DNA of 64,000 nt from Actinocatenispora sera (lineage in GTDB: Bacteria; Actinomycetota; Actinomycetes; Mycobacteriales; Micromonosporaceae): positions 310,001 to 374,000 of the forward strand of contig NZ_AP023354.1 of the NCBI RefSeq assembly GCF_018324685.1. The letters are read 5' to 3'. Position 1 is the first letter of the stretch. Every line of letters begins with the position of its first letter. Shown here one piece after another: positions 4,236 to 18,515 of the stretch. The notes under the pieces were generated by a model. That model was not told where the DNA came from, ran no database searches, and saw only the letters and a list, made by a program, of their open reading frames with translations. The translations under genes and the position numbers were made by a program.

Positions 4236-4243
4236 GAGCTGGA

Positions 4244-4287
4244 GTGGAGCTGAGGGGACTCGAACCCCTGACCCCCTCGTTGCGAAC
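4244..4287. repeat. attL: 44-bp tRNA-Ala 3' fragment
   Basis: This segment is identical over 44 bases to 18386-18429. It carries the tRNA-Ala 3' half from the anticodon loop to the discriminator base. Past 4287 the match breaks off in the anticodon stem, so it is a remnant, not a tRNA gene. It marks the distal end of the integrated element. Confidence 0.93.
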
Positions 4288-4371
4288 TACTTGCGACTCT
4301 GTTCGATCAAGCTCGATAGGCCCTGATCCAGCGTGTCGCGGGTCGGCTCGGTCGCCTGAGGCATGGCCGGT

Positions 4372-4393
4372 TGCTGTACTTTGCTGCTGTACC
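4372..4393. promoter_or_regulatory. Candidate integrase arm site, left end
   Basis: TGCTGTAC, three bases, then GCTGCTGTACC. The same arrangement in the same orientation occurs at 18315-18336 near the other end; only the three-base spacer differs. Paired repeats close to both att cores are what arm-type sites of a tyrosine integrase look like. The binding role is an inference. Confidence 0.55.
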
Positions 4394-4466
4394 CCCGAGC
4401 CAGCCGACTTGCCATCGAGCCAGTCCTTGCCATCGTCTTCCTACTCGCTTGCTGCGATGATTTCAG

Positions 4467-5486
4467 CTACTGGTCTTCATCGTGAGGACCAGGCGAATCG
4501 GCGGGAGACGCCGGGCGAGAATCACATTCACTGCGCGCCAGATTCATTTCAGCAACAAGCGTTCCAGGGCCAAGAATCATTCCATAGGTATCATATAAAG
4601 GGTATTTCATGAAGTGAATGGAAGACGGTCGCGGCACATCAGAGCTGTAGTAGCAAGCATCGATGTCTTGCCCCTGAAGTTCCACCACAACATTCGATAA
4701 TTCAAGATCATAGCAAGTCGAAATATGCACGTGGCGAGGATCGGGGTAGTTATCTTTAAACTTCTCATTATATATGGGCCGAAAATATGCAATCATTCCC
4801 GCTTCGGCAATCGCGACGGCTTCGCGACTCGCAAAACCTGACTCATTAACTCGCGAAAAGACCTTTGCAACATGCTCGTCATCTTCCTCGTCCGTACGGA
4901 TCGCCTCATATGTAGGATCGATCTCGGATGCCAAATTCATGTCGCTGAGTCGACACAGGCTTAGCCATATTTCTAGATCCGGTCTGTTCTCGGAATAGAT
5001 CCTCTGAAGAGTACTATGACTCTTTAGCCGGTCATAGGCCGTTCGTTCCCCTGCCTTGCCGAATGCTTGGCCAATATAGATGACCTCCTGAGGCAGCGCC
5101 GACGGGGCAATCATTCCCCATCCCACTGCAGCGATGGCCACGACGCCGCCCGCGACCGCGTTGCCCTCCGCATCGACAATCGAGAAATCCTCGTACGGGA
5201 AAGAAGACACCCACTTGAAGGGGCCCTTCCCGAGCGCATGACGTCCCGCAATATGCAACTCGCGGAAAGCATCCTCCCTTTGCTCCCTTAGTGTCAGAGA
5301 GAAACGTTCTTCGTCAATAAATACAGAATCGGGATGAACGCTAATCCGCGGGCGTCGCGAAACAATATAGAGGTTGCAGTCCTTCGCGAGATCCGTAGAC
5401 TCCATCAGATCTTTTTGGCGTCCGAATAGCTGGCCGTAGGCTACGACATTGAGAGCAAATTCGGTTGCATACCTCTTCTTGTTCAT
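4467..5486 (-). CDS. Cargo protein with GIY-YIG-like nuclease core
   Basis: A 339-aa protein whose DNA is clearly less GC-rich than the rest of the window and uses codons such as ATA, AAA and TTA. I do not recognise the full-length family. The middle has EVIYIGQAFGK, followed by AYDRLKSH and, 80-100 residues later, EAGMIAYFRPIYN. This order resembles the YIG strand, the catalytic Arg and the catalytic Glu with terminal P-x-YN of GIY-YIG endonucleases; the first GIY strand is not obvious. The C-terminal tail is acidic and disordered. Its codon use and its place just inside attL suggest a foreign cargo gene, possibly in defence or DNA processing. The function is inferred. Confidence 0.5.
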   Translation of the reverse strand: MNKKRYATEFALNVVAYGQLFGRQKDLMESTDLAKDCNLYIVSRRPRISVHPDSVFIDEERFSLTLREQREDAFRELHIAGRHALGKGPFKWVSSFPYEDFSIVDAEGNAVAGGVVAIAAVGWGMIAPSALPQEVIYIGQAFGKAGERTAYDRLKSHSTLQRIYSENRPDLEIWLSLCRLSDMNLASEIDPTYEAIRTDEEDDEHVAKVFSRVNESGFASREAVAIAEAGMIAYFRPIYNEKFKDNYPDPRHVHISTCYDLELSNVVVELQGQDIDACYYSSDVPRPSSIHFMKYPLYDTYGMILGPGTLVAEMNLARSECDSRPASPADSPGPHDEDQ

Positions 5487-5535
5487 AAAGCAATAATGAA
5501 CGCCATCGAACGGGCTGTCATCGGCCGTCTAGCTG

Positions 5536-5686
5536 GCTCCCATCCCGTCTGCCGTCGACCCACCCTTGGGGTAGCGGGCCGCGGCCAGGGCGCCAAGGTG
5601 GAGCGCCCTACCGGACGAACGACCTTGGCGCCCTGGCCGCGGCCTGCTACGGCATCGCCTGGGTCGTCGGTAGGCGGGATGGGAGC
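5536..5686. repeat. Large imperfect palindrome (64/65-bp arms, 22-nt loop)
   Basis: The left arm (5536-5599) and right arm (5622-5686) are reverse complements over most of their length, with perfect blocks at the base (GCTCCCATCCCG) and near the tip (GCCGCGGCCAGGGCGCCAAG). A short mismatched section lies in the middle. The arms could form a very stable hairpin in DNA or RNA. It lies directly upstream of the GIY-YIG-like gene and belongs to no reading frame I trust. It could be a fold-back MITE-like repeat, a single-strand origin or a structured RNA. Confidence 0.85.
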
Positions 5687-6165
5687 CCCCAGCCACCCGC
5701 GATCAGGTGCCTGCGCAGGCTCCTCTCCCATCCTGGAGCCGGAGCCCCCCGCCGGAGGCGCTTGAAACGCCCATGAGCCGCTAGTCAGAGACAAGTCACC
5801 CAAAACATCACGGAGTGTGCTCGATTTCAGGGGCGAGCCGCGGATCGTACTCACGGGGTCCGACACAACGGTGACCACAACATGTTGGGCGTCTCACTGG
5901 ACCGAGCGCCCCAGATCTTGTGTTACATGGTTGTGGTTTTGGCTTGCGCCAGGCCGGGAAGTGGCCTACAGTCAGTCACGAGCACAGCACGATGGCCCCG
6001 GCGAGGGTGCCGAGGTTGACACGCTCACCGGGGCCCTAGTGCGAATTGAGGCTCGCTCCTGGACCCTACATTGCTGTCTCCTGGTTGGCCCAGCCATCCA
6101 GGGTCACAGCGTGGTGACGTGCGTCTGGCTCGTCGCGTGGGCGAAACACGCCCGGCGAGAAGGGT
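5687..6165. other. Intergenic stretch between large palindrome and DUF3892 gene
   Basis: No convincing gene in these 479 bases; the open frames lack ribosome sites and family features. The only clear structure is a hairpin at 5994-6035, described separately. The promoter of the DUF3892 gene must lie near the right end. Confidence 0.5.
5994..6035. terminator. Hairpin, possible terminator
   Basis: GGCCCCGGCGAG and CTCACCGGGGCC pair over 11 of 12 positions around an 18-nt loop. There is no T-run, so factor-independent termination is uncertain. Confidence 0.4.
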
Positions 6166-6450
6166 ATGGGCATGTCCAGGAACATCACTGCAATCCGCCT
6201 GTCGGCGGGCGGCACCCGCCACGAGCACATCACCGCTGTTCGTTGGCAGGTGGCCGGCACCTATCAGACTGGCGACTCGACCACGGCTGACATGGTCCAC
6301 TGGATCGAGGCCGGCGGCTCTGCGTACGTTTCCAACGGGCATCGGACGGTCTCCGTCGGAGTCGTCGAGCCCAACATCGGAGCGAAGTACCTTCGGACCC
6401 ACGCTGATGGCGTCTGGACTGACAACCTGCTCGCGCTCCCCCGGTTCTAG
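6166..6450 (+). CDS. DUF3892 domain protein
   Basis: A 94-aa protein covered almost wholly by a DUF3892 domain. It opens with ITAIRLSAGGTRHEHITA, has the TADMVHWIEAGG helix in the middle, and ends with the family signature ADGVWTDNLLALPRF. A ribosome site GAGAAGG sits just before the ATG at 6166. The family has no established function; members are small, and this one is inside mobile DNA. It is followed by a nested hairpin. It appears complete and is a cargo gene of the element. Confidence 0.85.
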   Translation: MGMSRNITAIRLSAGGTRHEHITAVRWQVAGTYQTGDSTTADMVHWIEAGGSAYVSNGHRTVSVGVVEPNIGAKYLRTHADGVWTDNLLALPRF

Positions 6451-6459
6451 TACGTGCGA

Positions 6460-6509
6460 CGGCCCGCACGCTCCGTTGAAGATGATCTTCATCGGGGGGG
6501 TGCGGGCCG
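6460..6509. terminator. Nested hairpin after the DUF3892 gene
   Basis: Outer arms CGGCCCGCAC (6460-6469) and GTGCGGGCCG (6500-6509) are perfect complements. Inside lies a second palindrome, TGAAGATGATCTTCA (6477-6491). It begins nine bases after the stop codon, which suits a terminator or a cruciform-type site. Confidence 0.55.
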
Positions 6510-6728
6510 CTGTCGTTCGGGCGCCGGCTGCCGGACTGCGCGCGCCGCGCCGGAGGTGTGGGCGCGCGCCGGCCGAGCGGCCGGCGCTGCGGCCCGCGTG
6601 CGGGCCGCCTTGATCTCGTGATGAAAGTTTCAACGAGGTAGTGGGGCTGATGCGTGTCCTGTCTCGGGTGATGGTTGACGGTCGTGTGTCACCTGATGCT
6701 TGGCACCGGCGTCTACGCGGCAGCGGTG

Positions 6729-7316
6729 TTAGCGGTCTGGGTCAGTGATCAGCAGGGGCGAACAGGATGCGAGCTCGGTGATCACGGTTGCTGTGCTGGT
6801 CGCCTTCATCCGGTCCAGCTCATCGGCGGTGATGCCAACGACGGCCAGGAACCGCACTGTCCCGTAGGGAGTGTTGATCGGACCGAGTTGTGGGTCGTTG
6901 GTCATCGCTACGGCGGTCAGGCGGGTATCGGGTGAACCGGTGATCGGGCCGCCCGGATCCAGGCGGTGCCCGCTGGTGAAGGCGTTCCCAGTGCTGAACA
7001 CGTAGCGGCCGAGCTGGGTCAGAAGGCGTAGCGGCCACGACGGTGGCTGGGCTGCCGTCGCGGGCACCCGCATCGTCAGCTCGAATCCCCAGCCGCTCAC
7101 CTGCGGATCGTCGCTGTCCTTACCGAACAGCTCGGTCAGCCCGTAGGTCACCAGCAACCAGTGGTCATCGACGCGGTAGGCGCTGAGCCCGTAGACGCCA
7201 CCCTGACCGGGCAGGTTCTCCGTCGCCCAGTGCAACGGCTCCTGGTCCCCGACGACGGTAGTCATGGCCGCCTCGATAGCGTCCCATCCAAGAGCCTCAC
7301 CGGCAGTCTCGCTCAC
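6729..7316 (-). CDS. SUFU (suppressor of fused) domain protein
   Basis: A 195-aa protein matching the bacterial SUFU family along its length: GWDAIEAAM, then GLSAYRVDDHWLLVTYGLTE, GWGFELTMRV, LGRYVFSTGNAF and TPYGTVRFLAVVGIT. Bacterial SUFU proteins are known mainly as immunity proteins of polymorphic toxin systems. No toxin gene is near, so here it is an orphan. The GTG at 7316 is chosen because the domain begins within ten residues; the frame stays open to a TTG at 7406, adding a Gly/Arg-rich tail that looks non-coding. It is cargo of the element. Confidence 0.75.
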   Translation of the reverse strand: MSETAGEALGWDAIEAAMTTVVGDQEPLHWATENLPGQGGVYGLSAYRVDDHWLLVTYGLTELFGKDSDDPQVSGWGFELTMRVPATAAQPPSWPLRLLTQLGRYVFSTGNAFTSGHRLDPGGPITGSPDTRLTAVAMTNDPQLGPINTPYGTVRFLAVVGITADELDRMKATSTATVITELASCSPLLITDPDR

Positions 7317-7727
7317 CGCACCGCCTTGCCTCCCCGGCCGCCCGCCTCGCCCAAGCCACATCAGACTAGGCCCGCCGTCAACCGTCACTAGACACAGATC
7401 CGTCAAGCATCATCTGAGTCAAGACAAGTGGGGCTGATGCGGCCCGCGGCCGGCGCTGGCTGGCATGATGCCGCGGTGGGCATCGGCGTGCGCGTTATCG
7501 AGTACAGCGGTGCGGTGGTTGCAAAGCTGAAAGCGCCGGTGGACGTGAATCAACTGTGCGCGGTCGCCGCCAGGAGCCCGGCTCGGTACCCGCTGCTAGC
7601 CGGCGTCGACAAGTACGACAACACGTTTTTCAACTCGCGCCAGTCGATGACGCTGATTCGGGAGCTGGAAGGCGTCGCAGCAGCCGCCAACGAGGTCGCC
7701 GCCGCTGCTGAAGCCGTTCGGCAACTA

Positions 7728-8616
7728 AAGGTTGTCCCGTAATGATCTTGATGGGTTGACGCGGAAGGACTTCACGGCCGCGTCGGGCCGGTCATACGAC
7801 CATGGTCAGGTTGCGCATCAACGCGATACCGGCGGCGGCGTACCAGACGCCTCGTTGTTTGCGGCGGCAGTCGCGGAGGATCTTCCAGGACTTCATGTGG
7901 GCGAAGCAGTGCTCGACGCGGGCGCGGATACGGCGGTGGACGGTGTTGAGGTCCTGTTTCCACTGCGGCAGCGGCGGTTCACCCTCGCGCGGCTTGCGGT
8001 AGGGCATGATTACCTCCGGGTTGCCCTGGTAGCCGCCGTCGGCCATTACCGCCGCGCCGGCGCACTGTTGGTCGACGCCGGAGTCGGTGTAGGCGCGGCA
8101 GTCGTTGCGGTTGCCGGGCAACGGATCTCCGACCGCGACGGTCAGGCGGGTGTTGGCGTCGATGGCCACTTGCAGGTTGGTGGAGTACCGGTAGTTCTTC
8201 GACCGGGCCGACATGTTCCGGTCGTGGGTGGGCGCCAGCGTGCCGTCCACGATCAGGACCGTGTCGGGTCGGTGCCGGCGGCTCTGGGGCTCCAGTACCA
8301 GGTGTGGGGCCAGGTGATCGACGATGCGCCCGGCGGCCGACTTCGATACTCCGAACAGCGGCGCGATCTGCCGCAGGGTCAGGTTGGTGCGGTAGTAGGT
8401 GGCCACCAACAGCACCCGGTCGGCCAGCGGGAGCCCCCACCGGCGGCCAGCGCCGGTCTGCTGTCCGCCGCGACCAGCCACGATGGCCACCAGCTTGCCG
8501 AACTGCCGGGCTGACAGGCCGGTGAACACCGGGATCCACTGCGGCTGATCGGACCTGATCGTCTGCTCCACACCAAGGTCAACGACCGAGCGGACCAACG
8601 ATTACGGGACAACCTT
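7728..8616 (-). mobile_element. IS5-family insertion sequence, 889 bp, complete
   Basis: Perfect 16-bp terminal inverted repeats (AAGGTTGTCCCGTAAT and its complement at 8601-8616) are flanked by TA on both sides (7726-7727 and 8617-8618). The single transposase gene fills the inside. Size, ends and TA duplication fit the IS5 family, IS427-like group. It inserted into a small gene of the AICE cargo region. Confidence 0.9.
7792..8598 (-). CDS. IS5-family DDE transposase
   Basis: A 268-aa transposase of the DDE_Tnp_4 type. The N-terminal half has a helix-turn-helix stretch, LTLRQIAPLFGVSKSAAGRI (about residues 73-92). The catalytic triad is visible as D118 in VLIVDGTLAP, D187 in VMADGGYQGN, and E229 in RIRARVEHCFAHMK. 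The frame is uninterrupted and has the usual length for this group, so the element may still be active. The start at 8598 lies just inside the right terminal repeat. Confidence 0.92.
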   Translation of the reverse strand: MVRSVVDLGVEQTIRSDQPQWIPVFTGLSARQFGKLVAIVAGRGGQQTGAGRRWGLPLADRVLLVATYYRTNLTLRQIAPLFGVSKSAAGRIVDHLAPHLVLEPQSRRHRPDTVLIVDGTLAPTHDRNMSARSKNYRYSTNLQVAIDANTRLTVAVGDPLPGNRNDCRAYTDSGVDQQCAGAAVMADGGYQGNPEVIMPYRKPREGEPPLPQWKQDLNTVHRRIRARVEHCFAHMKSWKILRDCRRKQRGVWYAAAGIALMRNLTMVV

Positions 8617-8726
8617 TAGCCGAGCTGCTACGCCCTGCCCGCGGCCGACCTCATCACCGGCAGTTGGTCTTCGTCGGGGACTGACGACCGGCTTCAGTCA
8701 CGGCCTTCCGAGGAGCCCAGCGCCGT

Positions 8727-8912
8727 TCAACAGCCGTACGGCGAGCGATGGGTCTCTGAGCGGCTTCGTTGCGGGCTGAGGCTCGCTCCGGTGGAGCGCT
8801 CCTCGTAGCAGGCCGGGCAGAGTGCGACCTCGACGGTAACTCGCCCCGTGGACTCAAGCAGCGGGTCGGCACACCTGGTCGCGTTCGTCGCACCGCAGCG
8901 CGCGCAGGTCAT
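8727..8912 (-). CDS. Small Cys-rich protein (CXXC pairs)
   Basis: A 61-aa frame starts MTCARCGATNATRCADP and has a second pair, ALCPACYEE, about 30 residues later, as in a zinc ribbon. The tail is basic and unstructured. It overlaps the 3' end of the XRE gene by 59 bases in another frame, which is longer than usual. Similar CXXC microproteins occur four more times in this element. The protein is plausible, the function unknown. Confidence 0.45.
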   Translation of the reverse strand: MTCARCGATNATRCADPLLESTGRVTVEVALCPACYEERSTGASLSPQRSRSETHRSPYGC

Positions 8913-9771
8913 CGCTGCGCCTCGTCATCGGGGGCAGGTCGTTGACGGCCCGGAGGACCAGCGCGCGGGCGTCCTCGCCGGTCGCTGCTTCCTGCCACAG
9001 CCGCTCCATGACTCGGATGTAGAGCTGCGCGTCCTGGTCGCGGTAGGTGGTCTCACCGAGGAACGTCTCGACGATCACCACATCGTCGTAGATCTGGAAC
9101 GAGTTCTGCGGCACGGTCGGCAGCGGTACGCCCATCGGGACTACGCCGAACCGGATGTTCGGCATGCCGATGATGGTCTGCAACCGATCGAGCTGGCCAC
9201 GGTGCACGCTGGCCGGGCCGAGAACCCAGCGCAGCACAGGCTCAGCGAGCAGGAACTCGAACCGCTTCGAGCTGTCGTAGATCATCTGCTGCCGCTGCAT
9301 GCGCATCGCGACGGCCTGGTCGACGTCGTTGACGTCGAGCTCGTGCAGCTCGGTCATCTCGGTGAAGGCTCGGCGCGCGTAGTCAGGGGTCTGGACCAGG
9401 CCCGGGATCCAGGCCGTCTCGAAGTGCCCGATGACCTTGGAGTCACGAACGAGCTCGTTGTAGCTCTTCTGGACTGCCGCCTGACCTCGGCGCATCCGCC
9501 GCTTGAAGTCGCGGTGGTCGGTCTGTGCCTCGATCAACGCGCGCAGTAGATGTTCACGCGTCTCATCGTCGGCGTGGCAGATCTCGGCCCAGGTATCGAT
9601 GTCTTCTGCCGTGGGCATCTGCTTGCCGTTCTCGATCTTCGAGACGCGCGACGGCTGCCAGCCGCAGGCTTCGGCGAGTTCCTTGCCGCTGAGCCCCGCC
9701 TGCGTACGAAGTGCACGCAGGCGGTCGCTCAGACCCCCGGGCTGTGTCAGTAGTTCTTCGATCGGTGTCAC
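8854..9771 (-). CDS. XRE-family regulator with DUF5753 domain
   Basis: A 305-aa protein with an N-terminal helix-turn-helix (GLSGKELAEACGWQPSRVSK, about residues 28-47) followed by a DUF5753 region (AWIPGLVQTPDYARRAF, VLRWVLGP, FGVVPMGV, VVIVETFLGE). Such regulators are very common in actinomycetes and usually pair with small partner proteins. It lies 12 bases after the DUF6879 gene in the same operon, facing away from the transfer genes. It probably controls the element through the operator at 10680, but this is inferred from position only. Confidence 0.9.
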   Translation of the reverse strand: MTPIEELLTQPGGLSDRLRALRTQAGLSGKELAEACGWQPSRVSKIENGKQMPTAEDIDTWAEICHADDETREHLLRALIEAQTDHRDFKRRMRRGQAAVQKSYNELVRDSKVIGHFETAWIPGLVQTPDYARRAFTEMTELHELDVNDVDQAVAMRMQRQQMIYDSSKRFEFLLAEPVLRWVLGPASVHRGQLDRLQTIIGMPNIRFGVVPMGVPLPTVPQNSFQIYDDVVIVETFLGETTYRDQDAQLYIRVMERLWQEAATGEDARALVLRAVNDLPPMTRRSDDLRALRCDERDQVCRPAA

Positions 9772-9783
9772 GTGCTGTGCTCC

Positions 9784-10326
9784 TCAGGCGGCGATGTCCC
9801 GGACCTGATCCGGAACGCTGTAGTGGACTGCCAGGTCCCGCCACGCGCACGCCTGTACGACAGCCTCGGGGTCCGTGATCAGCTCGTTGCGGATCCGGTG
9901 TCCGGCCTCGTCGAAGTACATGACGAGGAGCCGATCCGAGTCGAGCAACCACCAATCGCGGTCCCCGGCGGCTGGCAAGAGCCCCACCTCATGCGCGGTG
10001 GCCCTCGTCATGTAGCGAAGCGTCTCGCCAGCCTTGATATTCCACGCACCGATCCAGCGCTCCCAGCGCTGGTAGTCGGTCGGGGGGTCTTCCTGAACGC
10101 GTACCCGTTCGATGTGCTTGCCGGCCGCCGTCTGCTCAGAGATCTGAGCGAACCACTGCCGGAGCCCCTCGACCTCGGTCGGTACCTCAGGCTCGCCGCT
10201 GACGAACTTCGCCACGGTGTCATGCTCGCTCGGCTCGGAGTAGACGGGCTGAAGCTCGAGCCGAAACGCGGTGTGGCTGAACGTCGCCAACGCCCGGGCG
10301 AAGTCTTCATCGGTGAGCGGGCGCAT
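9784..10326 (-). CDS. DUF6879 family protein
   Basis: A 180-aa protein with the family pattern: an N-terminal acidic helix (LTDEDFARALATFSHTAFRL), a central ERWIGAWNIKAGETLRYM, and a C-terminal DWWLLDSDRLLVMYFDEAG. DUF6879 proteins occur beside XRE-DUF5753 regulators in actinomycetes, and their biochemical role is not established. It sits between the 67-aa protein (2-base gap) and the XRE gene (12-base gap), so the three form one operon. Confidence 0.82.
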   Translation of the reverse strand: MRPLTDEDFARALATFSHTAFRLELQPVYSEPSEHDTVAKFVSGEPEVPTEVEGLRQWFAQISEQTAAGKHIERVRVQEDPPTDYQRWERWIGAWNIKAGETLRYMTRATAHEVGLLPAAGDRDWWLLDSDRLLVMYFDEAGHRIRNELITDPEAVVQACAWRDLAVHYSVPDQVRDIAA

Positions 10327-10328
10327 GA

Positions 10329-10532
10329 CTAACCCAGCTCCCGCAGCCTGTCGAGGACGTTGGCCGGTACGAACACGCCGTCCTCGTTGTCGGCGAGCTG
10401 CCGAAGCTGCTGCCGAGTCTCGTCGTCAAGCTTGACGCCCTGGACGACGTAGCCGCCTTCGGTGCGGTAGAGCGCGGGGCACCCACCGCCGCCCGAGTGA
10501 ACGTCCTTCCAGAGGAATTCCAGGTCCCTCAT
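10329..10532 (-). CDS. Small protein of the XRE-DUF6879 operon
   Basis: A 67-aa protein, MRDLEFLWKDVHSGGGGCPA, with VVQGVKLDDETRQQLRQLAD in its second half. It is the first gene of the three-gene control operon and ends two bases before DUF6879. Similar short acidic proteins accompany DUF6879/DUF5753 pairs in other actinomycetes, and a partner or antitoxin-like role is possible. No catalytic motif is visible. Confidence 0.7.
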   Translation of the reverse strand: MRDLEFLWKDVHSGGGGCPALYRTEGGYVVQGVKLDDETRQQLRQLADNEDGVFVPANVLDRLRELG

Positions 10533-10679
10533 CTGCGGTCACCCTCTGTCCGATTCGCGAAGGTACTTGCTCCTGACCCACCGATGGTCGCATGTCGAGC
10601 ACGAGCACGCAATCGCCCCGGCGCTGTGAAGCAACCGGGGCGTGACCTGCGGTATTGGAACCTGGCAGGCTCCATCGTA

Positions 10680-10729
10680 CTAGAAATTTCTAGCAATTGC
10701 TTGACGCGAGCGAGCGATCGACGCAGTAT
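10680..10729 (+). promoter_or_regulatory. Palindromic operator and promoter of the transfer-replication operon
   Basis: A perfect 14-bp palindrome CTAGAAATTTCTAG (10680-10693) is followed by GCAATTGC (10693-10700) and then TTGACG (10701-10706), a 17-base spacer and CAGTAT (10724-10729). This reads as an operator directly upstream of a sigma-70-like promoter for the Pra gene at 10783. The palindrome stands out as AT-rich in this GC-rich DNA. The regulator is probably element-encoded. Confidence 0.65.
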
Positions 10730-10782
10730 TGCTCCTGTTCCCGGACTCAGGCGGTTCGGGCGTGATGACAGGAGTGAGACGA

Positions 10783-11220
10783 ATGATCAGGGACGCGCTG
10801 CCGATCGACTTCTCGTTGGTGTTCGCGCATGGCGCGGCGGTGACGACCGACGTCGAGCAGGTGATGCAGTTCGAGGGCGGCAAGTCGACGGGCCGGCAAG
10901 AGATCGACAAGGACACCGGCCTGCCGGTGTGGCAGGTGACCGTGATGGACGCGGATCCGTCAGTGAAGGGTCCGTCGAAGTCGGTAAAGGTCAAGATCCT
11001 GTCGGAGGTGCAGCCGGTTCCTCCGCCGGGGCTGCCGGGGTTCGAGTCGATCCGGCCCGTGGAGTTCGTCGGGATGACCGCGCGGGCGTATGTCACCGAG
11101 GTCATGCAGGGCCGCTACAAGGTTGCGTGGTCGCTGAAGGCGCGGGAGATGGTCGCGCCGATGACCGCTGCGCAGGTGGCGAGCAAGAGCGGCGAGAAGC
11201 CGCTGTCGCCGGTCAAGTAA
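10783..11220 (+). CDS. pra: Pra-like replication, integration and excision activator
   Basis: A 145-aa protein resembling the Pra activator of pSAM2-type elements: ALPIDFSLVFAHGA at the start, DKDTGLPVWQVTVMDADP in the middle, then KSVKVKILSEVQPVPPPG. In pSAM2, Pra turns on the rep-xis-int genes and so excision and transfer. The ATG at 10783 is preferred over upstream starts because GGAG precedes it by the right distance. It is the first gene after the palindromic operator and is followed by a strong hairpin, so its dose can be set apart from the genes downstream. Confidence 0.82.
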   Translation: MIRDALPIDFSLVFAHGAAVTTDVEQVMQFEGGKSTGRQEIDKDTGLPVWQVTVMDADPSVKGPSKSVKVKILSEVQPVPPPGLPGFESIRPVEFVGMTARAYVTEVMQGRYKVAWSLKAREMVAPMTAAQVASKSGEKPLSPVK

Positions 11221-11226
11221 AGCCGA

Positions 11227-11272
11227 CGCGGGACGGGCGTCCCTTCCGCCAAGAACGATCGCCCGTCCCGCG
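11227..11272 (+). terminator. Hairpin after the Pra gene
   Basis: CGCGGGACGGGCG (11227-11239) and CGCCCGTCCCGCG (11260-11272) are perfect 13-bp complements around a 20-nt loop, beginning six bases after the stop codon. Confidence 0.7.
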
Positions 11273-11313
11273 CCTTCCAACACCCCACACCTCACGAGGG
11301 AGGTCGGGCTGTC

Positions 11314-11508
11314 ATGCCCACGGTAACCCGTGCCCGGAATCGGGCTGAGGACCGGTCGTTCTGGGACTACTGCGCCAACTGCGGGTCGTTTTCGGCGCTT
11401 CCGCCGGGCGCCTGGCTGTGCGACGAGTGCGCATGGTCGGTCGACGCCTGGTCGGTGTCGTCCACCACCAAGGGCGTCATTCGGTCGCGCATCGGTGGTG
11501 ATCGCTGA
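11314..11508 (+). CDS. Zinc-ribbon microprotein 1
   Basis: A 64-aa protein with YCANCGSF and LCDECAW, two CXXC pairs 19 residues apart, as in a small zinc ribbon. The preceding GAGGGAGG is a good ribosome site. Its stop codon overlaps the start of the next gene by one base. Function unknown; it is part of the transfer operon of the element. Confidence 0.65.
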   Translation: MPTVTRARNRAEDRSFWDYCANCGSFSALPPGAWLCDECAWSVDAWSVSSTTKGVIRSRIGGDR

Positions 11509-11735
11509 TGGGGAGGCGCCGGTCTATCTCGCGGGACATCGACGAACTGATCGCTTCGATCCCCAAGCCTGGTGCCTCGGCTGAAGAACGCGCCGCGTTC
11601 TACGACCTCAAGGCGCGAGTCTCGGAGCGGATCGCGGCCGAGCCGAACGAACTGGGCGCAGATGCGGCCGAGGCTGCCGAGATGGCGCGTCGCGCTCGTG
11701 GCGAGGCTGCGCGCCTTCGGGGCGGTGATCGCTGA
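11508..11735 (+). CDS. Small helical protein of the transfer operon
   Basis: A 75-aa, mostly helical protein (MGRRRSISRDIDELIASIPK, then a long charged Ala-rich helix). It shares one base with each neighbour, so translation is probably coupled. No family recognised. Small proteins of this sort are usual upstream of the translocase gene in these elements. Confidence 0.6.
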   Translation: MGRRRSISRDIDELIASIPKPGASAEERAAFYDLKARVSERIAAEPNELGADAAEAAEMARRARGEAARLRGGDR

Positions 11736-11914
11736 TGCGCCGGGATCGGTTGCACGACAGGGCTGTGCGCGATCTGCTGCGTACCGCCCCGGGCTCGGAG
11801 GCCAGTGCCGAGCAGGCACGCCGTTGGTACGCCGAGCATGCCGACGAGTTCGTCGCTCTGTCCAGTTCGGACAGTGGCAGGCGGGCCGGTTCGTCGGGCG
11901 GTGGTCGACGGTGA
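11735..11914 (+). CDS. Small protein, 59 aa
   Basis: ATG at 11735 overlaps the stop of the gene before, and its TGA at 11912-11914 overlaps the GTG start of the gene after. It reads MRRDRLHDRAVRDLLRTAPG and ends in a Ser/Gly/Arg-rich tail. The tight overlaps on both sides are the main support. Function unknown. Confidence 0.55.
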   Translation: MRRDRLHDRAVRDLLRTAPGSEASAEQARRWYAEHADEFVALSSSDSGRRAGSSGGGRR

Positions 11915-12108
11915 AGCGCTCATCGCATGTCAAGGCGCCGGCTCGGGTCAAGAACCGCCGGTGCGGTCAGTGCGGGGTCGCTGAGGCGCCCACGGCGCTG
12001 TCAGAGGACGGGCTCTGTCCGTCGTGCGCAAGTCAGGACGGGCTGTTCGCGGTGGATCCGGCCTGGGTGGTTGACCAGGACCGGCGTGGTTCTCGGAGGG
12101 CGTCATGA
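11911..12108 (+). CDS. Zinc-ribbon microprotein 2
   Basis: A 65-aa protein from GTG 11911 (GTGA overlap with the previous stop) to a TGA that overlaps the translocase ATG at 12105. It contains RCGQCGVAEAP and LCPSCAS, two CXXC pairs. The frame extends further upstream, but only this start fits the stop-start overlap. Function unknown. Confidence 0.6.
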   Translation: MKRSSHVKAPARVKNRRCGQCGVAEAPTALSEDGLCPSCASQDGLFAVDPAWVVDQDRRGSRRAS

Positions 12109-13703
12109 GCGGCAGAAACCAGACCGTCACGGAGCGGCAGGGCACTGCGGCTGAGCGGCTGTTCCCGCGTGCTGCAGCCACGATCGAGTTCGTTGCCGCG
12201 CTGGGCCGCGGGATCGGCCGGCTCTTCCGCACGGCGTACCTGTTCCGCGTCGAGTTGCTGCTGACAGGCGCCGGTGTCTGGGTGTGGCTGAAACTCTGGC
12301 ACTGGCTCGGATCCCCGCTGCTCGCCGCCAAGATTCTCGGTTCGATCCTCGCCGCGTTGCTGGTGCTGCGGCTGGTCTACGCGGCCGTGGGTAAGGCGGC
12401 TCCCACGATCGGGAAGCGTGCCGGTCGGCTCGCCGGTAACCCGATTGGTCGCGCACTGCTGCGGATCGCTGCCGCGCATGCGTTGCTCGTGGGTCTGCGG
12501 ACGGTGCTGCGCCGTCATCGGGCGGGCCGGGTGCTGCTGTGGGCGGCGGGGATGCGCGCCCGTGCCCGGGTCGTACGGCAGATGCGCGACGGGCTGACCG
12601 GCGTCCGGTTCGAGAACAACGCCGGCAAGCTGCCCCGCATCCGCAAGGTGCGCACCACCCCAGTCGGGGAGCGCATGACGCTGGTGTGCAAGCCGGGCCA
12701 GTCCGCCGAGCTGCTCGATACCCGCGCCGAGGAACTGCGGGCCGCCGCCAAGTCCCGTGACGTGCGCATCGTACGGGACCCCAACCGGTCGGATCTGGTC
12801 ACCGTCGACGTGGTGCGCCGTGACCCGCTGGCCGCCACTTCCGCGATCCGTTGGGACGGCCTGGGTCACGACGCGCTGTCGATGTGGGACCCGGTGCACA
12901 TCGGCATGGACGAGAACGGCGACCCGGTGCGCCTGTCGATGGCCGAGCGCCAGATCTTCCTGGCCGGGGAGCCGGGCTCCGGGAAGTCGTCGGGCGAGCA
13001 GGTCATCACCTGCCACGCCGCGAAGTCCCCGGATGCCGAGCTGCTGTTCATCGACCCCAACCGGGTCCAGTTCGCCCCGTGGGCCGACCGCGCTACTGCC
13101 TACGCCTACGCGGACCCCGACGACGCGCTCGAGGTGCTGAACATGGTTCGGGCCGAAGGCGACCGGCGGCTCGCTCTGTTGGAGAAGTTGCCCGGTGTGC
13201 AGCGCAAGCTCACTCGGGAGATTGCCGAGGGCGAGGGCATCCCGCTGTGGGTGCTGTTCATCGACGAGTTGGCGTACCACACCTCGGTGATCGGCACCAC
13301 GAACGGCCCGTTCGCCAAGGCGGCCCGCGACATCGTGTCCCGCTTCCGGGCGGCCGGGATCATCCCGGTGTTCGCGACCCAGCGGCCGACCTCCGACGTG
13401 GTACCGACCTCGCTGCGGGACCTGTTCAGCATGCGTACCGCCTACCGCACCACCACCCTCGCCTCCTCCGACGTGATCCTCGGCGAGGGCTGGGCGAGGC
13501 AGGGCTACTCGGCAACCGACATCGATCTCGCGAATCGGGGTGTGTCGTGGCTGCTGGCTGAGGGTGCGCTACCGCGCCGGGTCAAGTGGGCCTGGATCGA
13601 CGACGAGACCATCTCGGACCTGTCCATGACCACCGTGCGGTTCAAGCCACGCCGCGACCCGGTACCGACTCCCGCCACCGACGACACCGAGCAGGAGGGC
13701 TGA
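12105..13703 (+). CDS. FtsK/SpoIIIE-type DNA translocase (TraSA-like conjugation protein)
   Basis: A 532-aa protein with two or three membrane segments between about residues 25 and 145 and a RecA-like ATPase domain. Walker A is GEPGSGKSSG near residue 287, with Walker B VLFIDELA near 382 and ATQRPTSDVVP after it. In pSAM2-type elements this single hexameric pump moves double-stranded DNA from hypha to hypha and is the only essential transfer protein. It overlaps the upstream microprotein by ATGA and is followed after 3 bases by the DUF2637 gene. It appears complete. Confidence 0.92.
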   Translation: MSGRNQTVTERQGTAAERLFPRAAATIEFVAALGRGIGRLFRTAYLFRVELLLTGAGVWVWLKLWHWLGSPLLAAKILGSILAALLVLRLVYAAVGKAAPTIGKRAGRLAGNPIGRALLRIAAAHALLVGLRTVLRRHRAGRVLLWAAGMRARARVVRQMRDGLTGVRFENNAGKLPRIRKVRTTPVGERMTLVCKPGQSAELLDTRAEELRAAAKSRDVRIVRDPNRSDLVTVDVVRRDPLAATSAIRWDGLGHDALSMWDPVHIGMDENGDPVRLSMAERQIFLAGEPGSGKSSGEQVITCHAAKSPDAELLFIDPNRVQFAPWADRATAYAYADPDDALEVLNMVRAEGDRRLALLEKLPGVQRKLTREIAEGEGIPLWVLFIDELAYHTSVIGTTNGPFAKAARDIVSRFRAAGIIPVFATQRPTSDVVPTSLRDLFSMRTAYRTTTLASSDVILGEGWARQGYSATDIDLANRGVSWLLAEGALPRRVKWAWIDDETISDLSMTTVRFKPRRDPVPTPATDDTEQEG

Positions 13704-13706
13704 GCC

Positions 13707-14426
13707 ATGGCGTCGACCGACACCGAACGGCCTGCGGGCAGCGCCGAGTCACGTATGCAGGTCGCGATTCTGCTGGTGATCGGTTGCACGGCCGGCGCCG
13801 CCTCCTTCACCCACGTTCACGACCTGGCCGTCAAGCACGGTCAGCCCGAGTGGATCGGCTGGGCCGACGCGATCGTGCTCGAGCTGATGTCGATTGCGCT
13901 CGGCTTGGAGATCCGGCGCCGTCGCCGGTCCGGTACGGCATCTGGCCGGTTCGTGGGCGCTGCGATCGGCGCGGCTGCCCTGCTGTCGCTGTCGGCACAG
14001 GTCGCCGGTGCGGAGTTCTCGTTCTGGGGCTGGGTGATGGCCGGACTTCCCGCTGCCGCCTTCCTGGTCCTGGTCAAGATGCTCCTCTCCCGCCCGGCGT
14101 CCGCCGCACGGGTCGCATCCGAGACGGAAACCGTTCCGCCACAACAGGACAACGTGCCGTCGGGTCCTGTCGAGTCGGCGCCGGTCCCGGCCGAAGCGAT
14201 TGCTCCCGCGCCGGTCGTTCCGGTCGCTCGAACGGTCCCGCTGCCCCCGCTGCCAGTCGGACTGCTCGGCCGCGCTCAGGCCGTTGCCGCCGACTACGCC
14301 AAGGCGGGCCGCACGGTCGACCGCGATGGGCTACGCGCCGCGCTCGGCATCACGGCCGGGCAAGCCGACCGACTCCTCGTCGAGCTGACCGGCGCCCCGC
14401 ACAACGGCCACCGCGCCGCCGTCTGA
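13707..14426 (+). CDS. DUF2637 membrane protein (Spd-like spread protein)
   Basis: A 239-aa protein with four predicted membrane segments in the first 130 residues, including LVIGCTAGAASFTHVHDLAV and the EWIGWADAIVLELMSIALGL stretch typical of DUF2637. After a Pro/Val-rich linker, a C-terminal helix-turn-helix-like part (DRDGLRAALGITAGQADRLL) may bind DNA. Proteins of this type help intramycelial spread of AICEs and Streptomyces plasmids. It starts 3 bases after the translocase stop. Confidence 0.82.
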   Translation: MASTDTERPAGSAESRMQVAILLVIGCTAGAASFTHVHDLAVKHGQPEWIGWADAIVLELMSIALGLEIRRRRRSGTASGRFVGAAIGAAALLSLSAQVAGAEFSFWGWVMAGLPAAAFLVLVKMLLSRPASAARVASETETVPPQQDNVPSGPVESAPVPAEAIAPAPVVPVARTVPLPPLPVGLLGRAQAVAADYAKAGRTVDRDGLRAALGITAGQADRLLVELTGAPHNGHRAAV

Positions 14427-14438
14427 AAGGAGACCTCG

Positions 14439-14627
14439 ATGGCTACCACGACCTCCCCGCCGCCCCGGCACTGCACCACCTGCGGCGCGCGCATGTGGTC
14501 CCTGTCCTCGATCGGGATCCGGTCCGGTTACAACGCCGGCCGCTGGATCGACGAGTGCGCCGACTGCGCGGACGGCGTACCGGAGTCCGACCGCTCCCGA
14601 CTCCCGGTCCGCCGCGCCCACCGCTGA
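14439..14627 (+). CDS. Zinc-ribbon microprotein 3
   Basis: A 62-aa protein with HCTTCGARMW and DECADCADG, two CXXC pairs about 30 residues apart. AAAGGAG precedes the ATG by eight bases. It lies between the spread and replication genes. Function unknown. Confidence 0.65.
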   Translation: MATTTSPPPRHCTTCGARMWSLSSIGIRSGYNAGRWIDECADCADGVPESDRSRLPVRRAHR

Positions 14628-14669
14628 CCGTCCTCAGTAGACCGCCAACCACAGAGACAGGAGTACCCG

Positions 14670-14849
14670 ATGAAGCGCGAACGTCTGTTCTGGGACGCCA
14701 AGGACCGCGACGCCTGGCTGGACTCCAAAGAGTGCTGCCAAGCCTGCTCCACCTACTACGCCACCACCACCCGCGACGGCGACCGGGTTTGTGATGAGTG
14801 CGCGGCGTTCTGGGACCGCGAAACGAACACCAACCGCCGCGCCCGCTGA
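14670..14849 (+). CDS. Zinc-ribbon microprotein 4
   Basis: A 59-aa protein, MKRERLFWDAKDRDAWLDSK, followed by ECCQACSTYY and VCDECAAFWD. ACAGGAG is placed well before the ATG. It resembles zinc-ribbon microprotein 1 in the FWD and CDEC words, so the two may be related. Function unknown. Confidence 0.6.
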   Translation: MKRERLFWDAKDRDAWLDSKECCQACSTYYATTTRDGDRVCDECAAFWDRETNTNRRAR

Positions 14850-14894
14850 CCGCTCCCGAACCCGTCAGGGACTGACTCGGAAAGGAGGCCCGTC

Positions 14895-16460
14895 ATGACC
14901 GTCACCACGCTCCCCGTCCATGAAGACACCGCGCGTTCGGCGTCGGTCGTGGCGGGCCTGCTGTCCGACTTCACCGGCCTGTCACTTGACCCCGACCTGT
15001 TGGCCAACGGGGACGCTCGTGGTCTGTCCGACCGGATCACGGACCCGTCGTTTGGTGCGTGGCTCGATCAGGCGGCCCACGTTCAGGGATGCACCCGCCC
15101 CGTCCGACTGTCCGGCTCGTCGACCACCATCGACCGGGCTACCGGGCAAGTGCTGTCGGTGTTTTCGTCGACCACGCTGCCCGATGGCGTGCTATACGCG
15201 GCGTGCAAGAACCGTCGCGCCACTGTCTGCCCTGCCTGCGCGCACACCTACCGGTACGACACGTACCACCTGATCGCCGCCGGGCTGCGCGGCGGCAAGG
15301 AAGTCCCAGAGACCGTCACCGAACACCCGGCGGTGTTCGCGACCTTCACCGCGCCCGGCTTCGGCCCGGTGCACTCCGGCCCCGCCCACGCCGGCGCCGC
15401 CGGCTACCGCTGCCGTCCCCGCCACGACCGGCCGCGCTGCTCGCACGGCCGCCGACTGTGGTGCACCCGCATGCACGCACCCGGCGACCCGATGGTCGGG
15501 ACCCCGTTCTGCCTGGACTGCTACGACCACGACCACCAGGTCGTCTGGAACCACCTGGTACCGAAGCTGTGGGACCGCACCATGACCGCGCTGCGCCGCC
15601 AACTCGGCAACACCCGCACCCTGCGTGTCCGGTACGCCAAGGTCGCCGAGTACCAACGTCGCGGCGTGGTTCACCTGCACGCGCTGTTCCGGCTCGATGG
15701 CTACGACAGCGACGATCCGGACTCGATCCTGCCCCCGCCACGCGACCCGTCCGGTCGCTGGCTCGTCGACGCCGACGACTTGGCCGCCGGGCTGCGCACC
15801 GCCGCCGCCACGACCGGCCTGCAGGCGCCATCGCACCCCGACCGCCCGGACGGGTGGCCGATCGTGTGGGGTGACGGTGGCCGAGGTCGGCACGTAGACG
15901 TCCGCGTCGTTCGGCGTGGTCTGTCCGACGCCCAGCTCACCGAGCAACACGTCGCCGGGTACATCGCCAAGTACGCCACCAAGGGCGCTGAGGACGCCGG
16001 CATCAATGCCCGTCGGCTGCGCGAGTCCACCGTGGGCATCTGGGCCGACCGCGACACCCACGTCGGCCGGCTCGTCGCTGCCTGCTGGCGGCTCGGTCGC
16101 CCGGCCCGGTCACTGCGCCCCGACCTCGCGCACCCGTACAGCGGGCTGCGGCACTGGGCGCACATGCTCGGCTTCGGCGGCCACTTCTCTACCAAGTCGC
16201 GCCGCTACTCCACCACGCTCGGCGCGCTGCGGGCCGCCCGCCGACCGGAGAACCGGGTACAGACCGCCGGCCCGACCGCGATCGATCCCACCCAGCTCGA
16301 CGCCGAGCAGCACGACACCGACACGACGCTGGTCATCAACGACTGGCACTTCGTCGGTACCGGCTGGCTGACCACCGCCGACGAGGCACTCGCCAGGGCC
16401 GCCGCCGACGCCGCTCGGTCACGCCGACCCGCTGCCGTCGCCGCTTCCCCCGCCGTCTGA
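14895..16460 (+). CDS. Replication initiator (RepSA-like, rolling circle)
   Basis: A 521-aa protein of the actinomycete RepSA family, needed for rolling-circle replication of the excised element. The N-terminal third carries Cys pairs of a zinc-binding region (VCPACAHTYRYD and later CSHGRRLWC). The metal-binding HUH-like motif is VVHLHALFRLDG (about residues 257-268), and the nicking Tyr is probably in EQHVAGYIAKYATKGAE (about 350-366). AAAGGAGG precedes the ATG. It lies upstream of xis and int as in pSAM2. Length and motifs look complete. Confidence 0.88.
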   Translation: MTVTTLPVHEDTARSASVVAGLLSDFTGLSLDPDLLANGDARGLSDRITDPSFGAWLDQAAHVQGCTRPVRLSGSSTTIDRATGQVLSVFSSTTLPDGVLYAACKNRRATVCPACAHTYRYDTYHLIAAGLRGGKEVPETVTEHPAVFATFTAPGFGPVHSGPAHAGAAGYRCRPRHDRPRCSHGRRLWCTRMHAPGDPMVGTPFCLDCYDHDHQVVWNHLVPKLWDRTMTALRRQLGNTRTLRVRYAKVAEYQRRGVVHLHALFRLDGYDSDDPDSILPPPRDPSGRWLVDADDLAAGLRTAAATTGLQAPSHPDRPDGWPIVWGDGGRGRHVDVRVVRRGLSDAQLTEQHVAGYIAKYATKGAEDAGINARRLRESTVGIWADRDTHVGRLVAACWRLGRPARSLRPDLAHPYSGLRHWAHMLGFGGHFSTKSRRYSTTLGALRAARRPENRVQTAGPTAIDPTQLDAEQHDTDTTLVINDWHFVGTGWLTTADEALARAAADAARSRRPAAVAASPAV

Positions 16461-16578
16461 ACCTGAGGCGCTGCACTCGCATCTTGACAACTCCACAGAG
16501 GACACGACGCAACGGTCACGCACCGTCGACAAAACACAGCTGCGCCACGTCGCGCACCGTCACGAAAGGAGGCCAATC

Positions 16579-16866
16579 ATGGCCACCACTCAACCCACGC
16601 TCTTCAACCTCGACCCGCACATCCCGGCGGTCCACGCTGCGGCCGCCAAGGCACAGGCCACGCTGTCTGACTTCCTGGCCAACCAGACGCCGGCCGCACC
16701 ACGGCGGCTCTCCATCCGGCTCATCGGCACGCCCGAAGACGTCTCGACCTTCGTCGCCCTGGTCGTCGTGGCCACTGGCGACCGTTACGAACTCACCGCG
16801 CGCCGCGCCCGCACCCCCGGGCAGGTTCGCGCCTACCTCACCCCTCAGTCCAAGGAGCAGGAATGA
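16579..16866 (+). CDS. Small protein between rep and xis
   Basis: A 95-aa protein, MATTQPTLFNLDPHIPAVHA, with a C-terminal half of alternating strands (LSIRLIGTPEDVSTFVALVV). GAAAGGAGG precedes the ATG, and the stop overlaps the excisionase start by ATGA. Genes like this occur at the same place in related elements. No function is established. Confidence 0.65.
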   Translation: MATTQPTLFNLDPHIPAVHAAAAKAQATLSDFLANQTPAAPRRLSIRLIGTPEDVSTFVALVVVATGDRYELTARRARTPGQVRAYLTPQSKEQE

Positions 16867-17060
16867 CGGACACCGCCATCACCCCGCGCTGGCACACCCC
16901 GAAGGAGGTAGCCACGCTGCTGCACTACGGCATGTCGAAGACCAAGACCCTGATCGCCACGGGCCGGATTCGGTCGATCAAGGACGGGAAATACCGCCGG
17001 ATCTTGCCCGAGTGGGTTGACGAGTACGTCCAGCGCTGCGCTGAGGAGGCGTACCGGTGA
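16863..17060 (+). CDS. xis: Excisionase (helix-turn-helix, MerR-like Xis)
   Basis: A 65-aa winged-helix protein: WHTPKEVATLLHYGMSKTKT, then IRSIKDGKYRRILPEWVDEY, the usual excisionase/HTH_17 pattern. It overlaps both the upstream gene and the integrase start by four bases, so xis and int are co-translated. Its role is to bind near the att sites and direct the integrase to excise the element. Confidence 0.88.
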   Translation: MTDTAITPRWHTPKEVATLLHYGMSKTKTLIATGRIRSIKDGKYRRILPEWVDEYVQRCAEEAYR

Positions 17061-18283
17061 GCGGCAAGGCTCGGGCCAACGGCGAGGGTTCGATCTACCC
17101 GTACAAGGGTGGGTACGCCGCGTACGTCTGGGTCACCGATTCGAACGGACTCCGAAAGCGCAAGTACGTGTACGGCCGGGAGCGCGAGGAAGTCCACGGC
17201 AAGTGGATCGAGCTGATGCGGAAGGCCAAGGAAGGCCCGGTCGCCACGAAGACTCCAACCGTGGCGAGCTATCTGGCGTACTGGCTGCGGGATGTGATCG
17301 AGCCGAACCGTTCCCCGGCCACATACGCGAACTACGAGATGTTCGCTCGGCTCTACATCGTGCCGGGGCTCGGCGACAAACACCTCGACCGGCTCAAGGT
17401 CAGCGACGTGCAGAAGTGGATCAACAAGGTTGCCGCGACCTGCCAGTGCTGCGCCCAAGGTAAGGACGAACGGCGGCCGGCAAAGCTTCGCCGGTGCTGT
17501 GCTCGCGGTCGCTGCTGCGGCGAGTACATCTCGGCTCGGACGTTGAGCGACGTGCGCAACTGCCTCCGGTCAGCACTGTCTCACGCCCGCGACGCGGACG
17601 AACTGCTGAGCAAGAATGCGGCGGCGCCGGTCAAGTTGCCGCCGATCCGCAAGCGGCGGGGGAAGGCGTGGTCGACGGAGGAGGCACGTCGCTTTCTCGA
17701 ATCGGCTCGGCAGGATGGCGACCCGCTGTATGCCGCGTACGTGCTGACGCTCGTCCTGGGGCTGCGTCGCGGCGAGGTGCTTGGGCTCACCTGGGATGAC
17801 GTCGACGTGGACGGCGAGGAGCTGTCCGTCGCATTCCAGCTTCAGCGGATCCGTGGCCGTCTGTACCACCGGGAGACCAAAACCGAGGCTTCCGACGCGA
17901 CGCTCCCCTTCCCGAGCATCTGCACGACTGCCCTGCAGCTCCGACAGGAAGCTCAGAACGGAGCGAAAAGCGCGGCCGGCCATGCGTGGCACGAATCACG
18001 TCTCGTCTTCACGACTCGGCTCGGCACACCCATCGAACCGCGCAACTTCAATCGGTCGTTTCACGCCCGGTGCGAGGCTGCGGGGGTCCGGCGGATCAAG
18101 GTGCACGACGCTCGGCGAACCTGTGCGAGTTTGCTGGCCGATCTCGACGTGCACCCACGGGTCGCGATGCAGATCCTCCGGCACGCGGACTTCGACATCA
18201 CGATGGAGGTCTACACCCAGGTCTCCTCGAAGAAGACCCGGGATGCGCTCAAGCGGCTGAGCGAGAGCCTCGGGGAGTGCTGA
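17057..18283 (+). CDS. int: Tyrosine site-specific integrase
   Basis: A 408-aa phage-type integrase. The N-terminal arm-binding part (GEGSIYPYKGGYAAYVWVTD) is followed by the core-binding domain. The catalytic residues are Arg in LGLRRGEVLGL (about 234), His and Arg in VHDARRTCASLL (about 350), His in ILRHADFD (about 374) and Tyr in VYTQVSS (about 386). A Cys-rich insert (CQCCAQGKDE to CCARGRCCGEY, about 130-155) interrupts the core-binding domain and may bind zinc. The GTG start overlaps xis. It ends 103 bases from the att core, the usual distance for these elements. Confidence 0.93.
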   Translation: MSGKARANGEGSIYPYKGGYAAYVWVTDSNGLRKRKYVYGREREEVHGKWIELMRKAKEGPVATKTPTVASYLAYWLRDVIEPNRSPATYANYEMFARLYIVPGLGDKHLDRLKVSDVQKWINKVAATCQCCAQGKDERRPAKLRRCCARGRCCGEYISARTLSDVRNCLRSALSHARDADELLSKNAAAPVKLPPIRKRRGKAWSTEEARRFLESARQDGDPLYAAYVLTLVLGLRRGEVLGLTWDDVDVDGEELSVAFQLQRIRGRLYHRETKTEASDATLPFPSICTTALQLRQEAQNGAKSAAGHAWHESRLVFTTRLGTPIEPRNFNRSFHARCEAAGVRRIKVHDARRTCASLLADLDVHPRVAMQILRHADFDITMEVYTQVSSKKTRDALKRLSESLGEC

Positions 18284-18314
18284 CCACCGGATCTCGCTCC
18301 CAGCCGGCTCCCAC

Positions 18315-18336
18315 TGCTGTACATCGCTGCTGTACC
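18315..18336. promoter_or_regulatory. Candidate integrase arm site, right end
   Basis: TGCTGTAC, three bases, GCTGCTGTACC, in the same orientation as the left copy at 4372-4393. It lies between the integrase stop and the tRNA. Confidence 0.55.
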
Positions 18337-18344
18337 GGCACGAA

Positions 18345-18377
18345 AGAGGCGGTCTCCGGAATCCGGAAACCGCCTCT
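18345..18377. terminator. Element-borne terminator behind tRNA-Ala and int
   Basis: AGAGGCGGTCTCCGGA and TCCGGAAACCGCCTCT pair over 15 of 16 positions with a 1-nt tip. It ends the reverse-strand tRNA transcript and also the forward integrase transcript. The base of the stem (AGAGGC/GCCTCT) matches that of the displaced host terminator at 4201-4235. Confidence 0.75.
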
Positions 18378-18385
18378 GACCTGGG

Positions 18386-18429
18386 GTGGAGCTGAGGGGA
18401 CTCGAACCCCTGACCCCCTCGTTGCGAAC
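18386..18429. repeat. attR: 44-bp core within tRNA-Ala
   Basis: Identical to 4244-4287. It covers the tRNA from the anticodon loop to one base past the discriminator base, so the element rebuilds an intact tRNA at this end. Confidence 0.93.
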
Positions 18430-18460
18430 GAGGTGCGCTACCAGACTGCGCCACAGCCCC
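18387..18460 (-). tRNA. tRNA-Ala (CGC)
   Basis: The reverse strand folds as a 74-nt cloverleaf: acceptor GGGGCTG with CAGCTCC, D arm GCGC/GCGC, anticodon stem CCTCG/CGAGG with loop TTCGCAA (anticodon CGC), and T arm AGGGG-TTCGAAT-CCCCT. CCA is not encoded. It is the integration target: its 3' half now comes from the element, yet the sequence is unchanged. Confidence 0.93.
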
Positions 18461-18515
18461 AGCGCGCAACAGCCTAGCAGGTGGGTTTTCCGGGCCGCCA
18501 ACCGATACCGGCGGG

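Follow-up and report, generated by a model that had tools for sequence, protein, structure and literature searches.

Two conserved, strand-fixed DNA blocks amid the replaceable cargo of an actinomycete integrative element: a probable second-strand origin

We analysed a 64,000-nucleotide window of the Actinocatenispora sera genome (bases 310001–374000 of a single 7.04-Mb contig), in which an actinomycete integrative and conjugative element (AICE) occupies positions 4244–18429, inserted in a tRNA-Ala(CGC) gene. The left segment of this element is replaceable cargo, within which lie two blocks, A and B, that are conserved across many AICEs in one orientation relative to int and rep. Judged from their sequence features, the two blocks probably form a composite second-strand origin, that is, a single-strand origin (sso) resembling the sti locus of plasmid pIJ101, kept through the exchange of cargo and integrase.

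5535–5690, plus strand: block A, a 150-nt hairpin defined by covariation, with a conserved tail to about 5765
6458–6638, plus strand: block B, a stem followed by CTTGA-N4/5-GTR-NN-GAAAST (motif at 6602–6628)

Searching 300 family genomes with the translocase of the element returned a near-twin in the congener G001, whose translocase is 97% identical and whose DNA matches the window at 95.8% identity over 8118 bp (window 8745–16857). The match ends just ahead of the xis start codon. The target gene of the twin is tRNA-Val(TAC), its att repeat measures 53 bp and its integrase is only 39% identical to that of the window element. In the left segment, the two elements have in common only 5537–5759 (94%) and 6458–6638 (91%), which in G001 adjoin each other and the regulator region. 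The twin has no GIY-type gene, DUF3892 gene, SUFU gene, insertion sequence (IS) or IS-cut open reading frame (ORF), and because the same backbone does without all of them, the left segment is shown to be variable, replaceable cargo, with xis, int and att completely different between the twins. As the stretch from xis through int and attP to the left end is contiguous in the circular form, a single cassette exchange could explain the differences at both ends. For AICEs, variable cargo on a shared backbone and the exchange of integrases have already been reported (PMC9513070), as has module exchange (PMC3218068), these and the other papers cited here being represented by excerpts; the twin pair is a clean example of the exchange of the int-att end plus cargo on one backbone.

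The original prediction had seen a cargo slot in the 4.4 kb between attL and the control genes, a length close to the roughly 4.57 kb that we measure (4288–8853). Its proposal to align related AICEs was carried out and bore out the variability of the left segment, as the near-identical backbone in G001 illustrates, but a plain cargo slot it is not: the segment holds the two conserved cis blocks, at 5535–5765 and 6458–6638, and about 0.9 kb of it is an IS cutting another ORF.

The block A hairpin folds as DNA at a z-score of −9.8. In an alignment of 36 non-redundant copies, with the structure taken from RNAalifold, 97.8% of the cells are paired against 86.9% in shuffles, the covariation score is 0.334 against at most 0.071 with slid structures, and 18 of the 43 pairs have changed on both sides; none of 500 shuffles attains the observed values. 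As the structure comes from the alignment on which it was scored, and as relatedness among sequences can by itself outdo shuffles, most weight falls on the slid control and on the variety of pair types. The main hairpin contains 174 G·T cells versus 4 C·A cells, an excess that implies folding of one strand, the int/rep-sense strand; although structure prediction on that strand favours G·T somewhat, it would hardly do so forty-fold.

Furthermore, the strand of block A is fixed. It agrees with int in all 28 loci with a match (42 examined), a set in which L106 matches only in 34 nt of the tail and L105 only partially, and in which many loci are syntenic relatives rather than independent cases; it agrees with int, rep and tra in all 12 orientable loci of another 16 examined. 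Overall, in each of the 40 loci that could be oriented, block A or its tail points the same way as int/rep, and its distance from rep ranges from about 1 to more than 9 kb. By BLAST, matches to the inverted repeat with its tail turned up in 25 of the 38 AICE loci retrieved and, counting the one in the window, at nine sites of the element's own chromosome. A covariance model detected the block in 110 of 200 family genomes (E ≤ 1e-8) and in 7 of 296 phylum genomes, own genome included (E ≤ 1e-4), and there was no match in phage records.

Block B ends in a GC stem directly before CTTGA-N4/5-GTR-NN-GAAAST, and 6440–6660 folds at a z-score of −6.2. Its exact pattern occurs in 40 of the 62 loci examined, never more than once per locus, and is absent from five mononucleotide shuffles of 1.18 Mb; a longer pattern occurs in 70 of 190 family genomes, against none of the 190 for a reversed-pattern control. 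Both blocks are present in 19 of the 38 AICE loci. Among neighbouring copies, paired from the matches listed (81 of 102 for B and 109 of 150 for A, the others showing no listed partner by eye, giving at least 47 pairs), B lies 3′ of A in 47 of 47 pairs and on the same strand in 46, at a median spacing of 333 nt (usually 212–352, with a full range of 212–376 leaving out the window). The spacing in the window, 917 nt, is a long outlier because the DUF3892 gene sits between the blocks; in the G001 twin it is 240 nt. In L101 and L102, some 100 bp separate the exact match to B from a loose, inverted one, an arrangement resembling a head-to-head duplication.

The B stem and motif recur in the classical plasmids pIJ101, pJV1 and pSN22, once in each and on the rep strand; unlike the window, these plasmids have no significant block A, and we accordingly rejected the idea that block A is the pIJ101 sti itself. 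In pIJ101, the exact motif lies at 7272–7299 on the minus strand, with spdA2 between it and rep; a 135-aa ORF in this region corresponds to an ORF of Streptomyces longwoodensis and has the length given for SpdA2 in PMC4170104. The wider B block aligned to this region scores 104, whereas none of 300 shuffles exceeds 85. In pJV1 and pSN22, the motif lies between rep and the GntR repressor gene. In published descriptions, spdA2 separates rep from the pIJ101 sso (sti) (PMC4170104), which is also located downstream of rep (PMC11985553); copy control is reported to depend on sti keeping its natural orientation (PMC9761944). A 9.9-kb plasmid of S. longwoodensis with the pIJ101 layout carries block A beyond the position of spdA2, and the patterns used found no B at the pIJ101 B position; its Rep shares 35% identity with the pIJ101 Rep, falls just under the Rep_1 cut-off and has no match to the RepSA model.

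We consider the blocks sso-like because freedom of position, a locked orientation, single-strand folding (supported by covariation and strand bias for A, predicted for B) and independence of any one Rep family are what an sso should display. With roles taken from the known families, the integrase and Xis would move the element into and out of tRNA-Ala(CGC), RepSA would copy the circle by rolling-circle replication and the FtsK-type pump would transfer it. During replication, Rep would displace the rep-sense strand, on which A and B would fold and prime synthesis of the complementary strand. Cargo lies beside and between the blocks and leaves each whole. More tentatively, and with slightly less than an even chance in our judgement, block A may be a new class of rolling-circle second-strand origin or primer-assembly site in many AICEs and some Streptomyces plasmids, acting with or instead of a sti-type B, and its 5′ edge may be a favoured boundary for swaps of the int-att cassette.

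Several observations weigh against the composite origin. According to PMC3218068, the DNA that AICEs transfer is double-stranded, so that an sso would serve replication and not entry. The covariation and strand-bias evidence for folding of one strand concerns block A only, and B was placed in the sti region of pIJ101 through the position of spdA2, not through exact sti coordinates. The association of the blocks is also imperfect: among the 38 AICE loci, these searches found A only in 5, B only in 10 and neither in 4; B lies 1766 nt from A in L105; and the two are on opposite strands in G101, by the calls made. Block A is sometimes doubled (L278; G000:C1 4410379 and 4411476, in the own genome), and when up to 3 substitutions are allowed, the B pattern yields a second, inverted copy in L101 and L102. 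Lastly, the CTTGA that follows the stem in B also resembles a nick site.

This resemblance leads to another reading of B, the rival readings being concerned with A or B separately and their likelihoods not being mutually exclusive. CTTG/A is the nick consensus of phiX174/pC194-type Reps, and in the usual layout the sso lies 5′ of the double-strand origin. B could thus be the double-strand origin, nicked by Rep at CTTG/A after the stem, with A an sso just 5′ of it that is exposed last. The stem directly before CTTGA and the near-fixed spacing of A 5′ of B agree with this arrangement, and since the exact limits of sti are not seen, B could be a nick site of this type and A alone the sso. However, of two primers for a pIJ101 replicon in PMC9761944, the one located matches about 8480–8498 and reads away from B (7272–7299), and sti was added to that replicon as a separate fragment (PMC9761944). 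For both reasons B appears dispensable for the pIJ101 replicon, and we regard a double-strand origin as unlikely, if by no means far-fetched. That A, B or both are clt, the site recognised by the FtsK-type pump, seems to us quite improbable: the blocks are cis-acting in elements with FtsK/TraB pumps, and the pIJ101 copy of B is near korB, where we take clt to lie, but the G·T strand bias and covariation of A point to single-strand folding. TraB, by contrast, recognises 8-bp clt repeats and moves double-stranded plasmid (PMC4170104).

Covariation and a G·U bias would suit RNA as well as single-stranded DNA, and block A might then be a structured small RNA acting in trans rather than a DNA origin. 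Against this stand its orientation, locked to int/rep at variable positions in every orientable locus, and the Rfam search of 4000–18700, in which only tRNA passes the gathering score; we hold a small RNA to be rather improbable. The miRNA-type and tmRNA matches in this region fall below gathering, and block A was rejected as a member of an Rfam family. It was likewise rejected as a miniature inverted-repeat transposable element, as it mostly occurs once per element and on a fixed strand (doubled in L278 and near G000:C1:4410379). We also disfavour the idea that the segment is a cargo slot and nothing else, with A and B as selfish repeats. It could draw on copies of A found 1.3–1.7 kb from tRNA genes without a detected AICE gene (L286, L287), on A in a relic in the congener G003 and on its doubling in a few places, but it is barely credible given that orientation and spacing are fixed, that A covaries and that classical rolling-circle plasmids share the B motif.

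The relic in G003 lies beside tRNA-Val and consists of block A plus a portion of B that reaches 6612 and lacks the motif; tblastn found no backbone gene in 19.9 kb, and we classify the site as an AICE relic. L286, L287 and L172, all in G003, have block A near tRNA genes and no AICE gene by tblastn, and are likely to be relics of lost elements. Block A could thus act as a fossil marker of lost AICEs. In the own genome (G000:C1:3883200–3963400, L166–L170), five AICE copies of about 16 kb stand head to tail, 99.2–99.9% identical and each with block A; ARAGORN found no tRNA in 3862000–3975000 around this array.

The open-licence literature surveyed, in the excerpts available, contains no description of the block A hairpin in AICEs, and these excerpts do not address how the single-stranded replication intermediates of AICEs become double-stranded. 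With the A/B module conserved, searchable and equipped with a covariance model, that question becomes directly open to test, AICEs and their relics can be recognised without recourse to any protein gene, and vectors for actinomycetes gain a candidate stability element. A close layout is that of pMR2 from Micromonospora rosaria (NC_006910.1), which like the window has RepSA, xis, int, FtsK and DUF2637 genes in the same order and a block A some 265 bp past int and on its strand, but differs in its cargo and in having no B motif by the patterns used. The pSAM2-type AICEs share module exchange and also include tandem elements, although the excerpts of that survey mention no A/B module (PMC3218068). 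The AICE families of PMC9513070, from Streptomyces, show the same cargo variation and integrase exchange, and no cis elements are mentioned in the excerpts. ICEBs1 offers a further parallel in its sso1, an orientation-specific folded sso on an integrative and conjugative element with a second, redundant region (PMC4595007); unlike the present element it belongs to Firmicutes, and the likeness is one of description, not of sequence comparison.

The remainder of the element agrees with an intact-looking AICE of the pSAM2/pMR2 kind, with the following boundaries and core genes.

4244–4287: attL, left copy of the 44-bp repeat (repeat search)
8854–9771, minus strand: XRE-DUF5753 regulator (profile match)
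9784–10326, minus strand: DUF6879 protein (profile match)
10783–11220, plus strand: Pra-like ORF (tblastn to other AICEs and pMR2)
12105–13703, plus strand: FtsK/TraB-type translocase (PF01580; NF041214 far under cut-off)
13707–14426, plus strand: DUF2637 protein (PF10935)
14895–16460, plus strand: RepSA rolling-circle initiator (PF20199, 4.3e-148)
16863–17060, plus strand: HTH_17 xis-like protein (profile match; phrog_66 at 0.0011)
17057–18283, plus strand: tyrosine integrase (PF00589, 2e-18)
18345–18377, minus strand: element-borne inverted repeat, now after the tRNA 3′ end (read from the sequence)
18384–18461, minus strand: tRNA-Ala(CGC), the target gene (ARAGORN, Rfam)
18386–18429: attR, right copy of the 44-bp repeat, within tRNA-Ala

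The perfect repeats at both ends and the set of int, xis, rep, translocase, DUF2637 and Pra-like genes had been predicted, and both hold: the repeat is exactly 44 bp (4244–4287 and 18386–18429) and occurs only twice in the whole window, and the genes are those of a RepSA AICE. Thus direct att repeats, of which the attR copy corresponds to the 3′ part of a tRNA gene, are combined with int and xis beside att, a RepSA initiator and a single FtsK/TraB translocase. No type IV secretion system family was found among 20 scanned ORFs, 2 of them outside the element and small ORFs only partly included. The proteins contain RRGE/HxxR, HLH and YxxKY, and the Walker A sequence GEPGSGKS, which we take to be functional motifs of integrase, Rep and pump, respectively. 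Integrase matches occur in 105 of 300 family genomes, own included (E ≤ 1e-60). The Pra-like ORF has no Pfam, NCBIfam or PHROG match and is recognised only through homology to other AICEs. The inverted repeat at 18345–18377 is a candidate replacement terminator for tRNA-Ala(CGC), and another hairpin read from the sequence just outside attL, at about 4200–4236, may have served the tRNA before insertion. A palindrome, CTAGAAATTTCTAG, at 10680–10693, between the divergent DUF6879 side and the Pra-like gene, is a candidate operator of the XRE-DUF5753 regulator.

Comparison with strains lacking the element, also suggested beforehand, showed the tRNA-Ala(CGC) locus to be element-free in all 3 other congener genomes examined, with no second att copy near it in 15–19 kb per genome. 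DNA just beyond the tRNA is different in every congener (roughly 0.9 kb in G003 and roughly 4 kb in G001), which is why the exact pre-insertion junction is not seen in any of the three. In G002, a 124-bp piece with tRNA-Ala(CGC) (L037 9025–9149) is inverted relative to its neighbours.

The cargo of the left segment comprises four coding regions and the IS.

4467–5486, minus strand: GIY-YIG-like protein (phrog_15714; G+C 51% against 72.5% for the window)
6166–6450, plus strand: DUF3892 protein, between A and B (PF13031, 2.9e-17; phrog_8224)
6729–7406, minus strand: SUFU-family protein (PF05076, 2.9e-35)
7428–7742, plus strand: ORF cut by the IS (comparison with G003)
7725–8619, minus strand: IS with 19-bp perfect terminal inverted repeats (DDE transposase at 7792–8598)

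An uninterrupted relative of the cut ORF is found in G003, where both flanks of the window's IS align side by side. The GIY-type protein (339 aa) is rare, occurring in 4 of 300 family genomes and 2 of 396 phylum genomes, own included in both, and at 79 loci of the named collection spread over many phyla. Its relatives retain the residues Y-x-G, R, H, E and P-x-x-N, which together with weak matches to UvrC and Eco29kI profiles suggest a GIY-YIG-type nuclease. Its AlphaFold model, though confident (mean pLDDT 85.8), has no Foldseek match in the PDB at E ≤ 0.001, and the protein has no match in phage records. We rejected it as a known defence gene, as the window protein has no PADLOC or Pfam match; 1 of 37 aligned members matches a PADLOC candidate model, at 0.0047. 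Its relatives have no recurrent partner gene nearby, their own cluster being present at 77 of the 79 loci and the next, integrase-like one at 7, and our guess would be a solitary selfish or defence nuclease. An AICE-like element in G072 with 48-bp att repeats carries a 50% identical relative near its int-distal end on the minus strand, and its block A lies about 5 kb away from that gene. Long relatives (768–780 aa) with an extra C-terminal half occur at L094, L246 and L249, with Actinomadura and Frankia among the hosts, and the Frankia copy has ftsk- and pra-like genes nearby.

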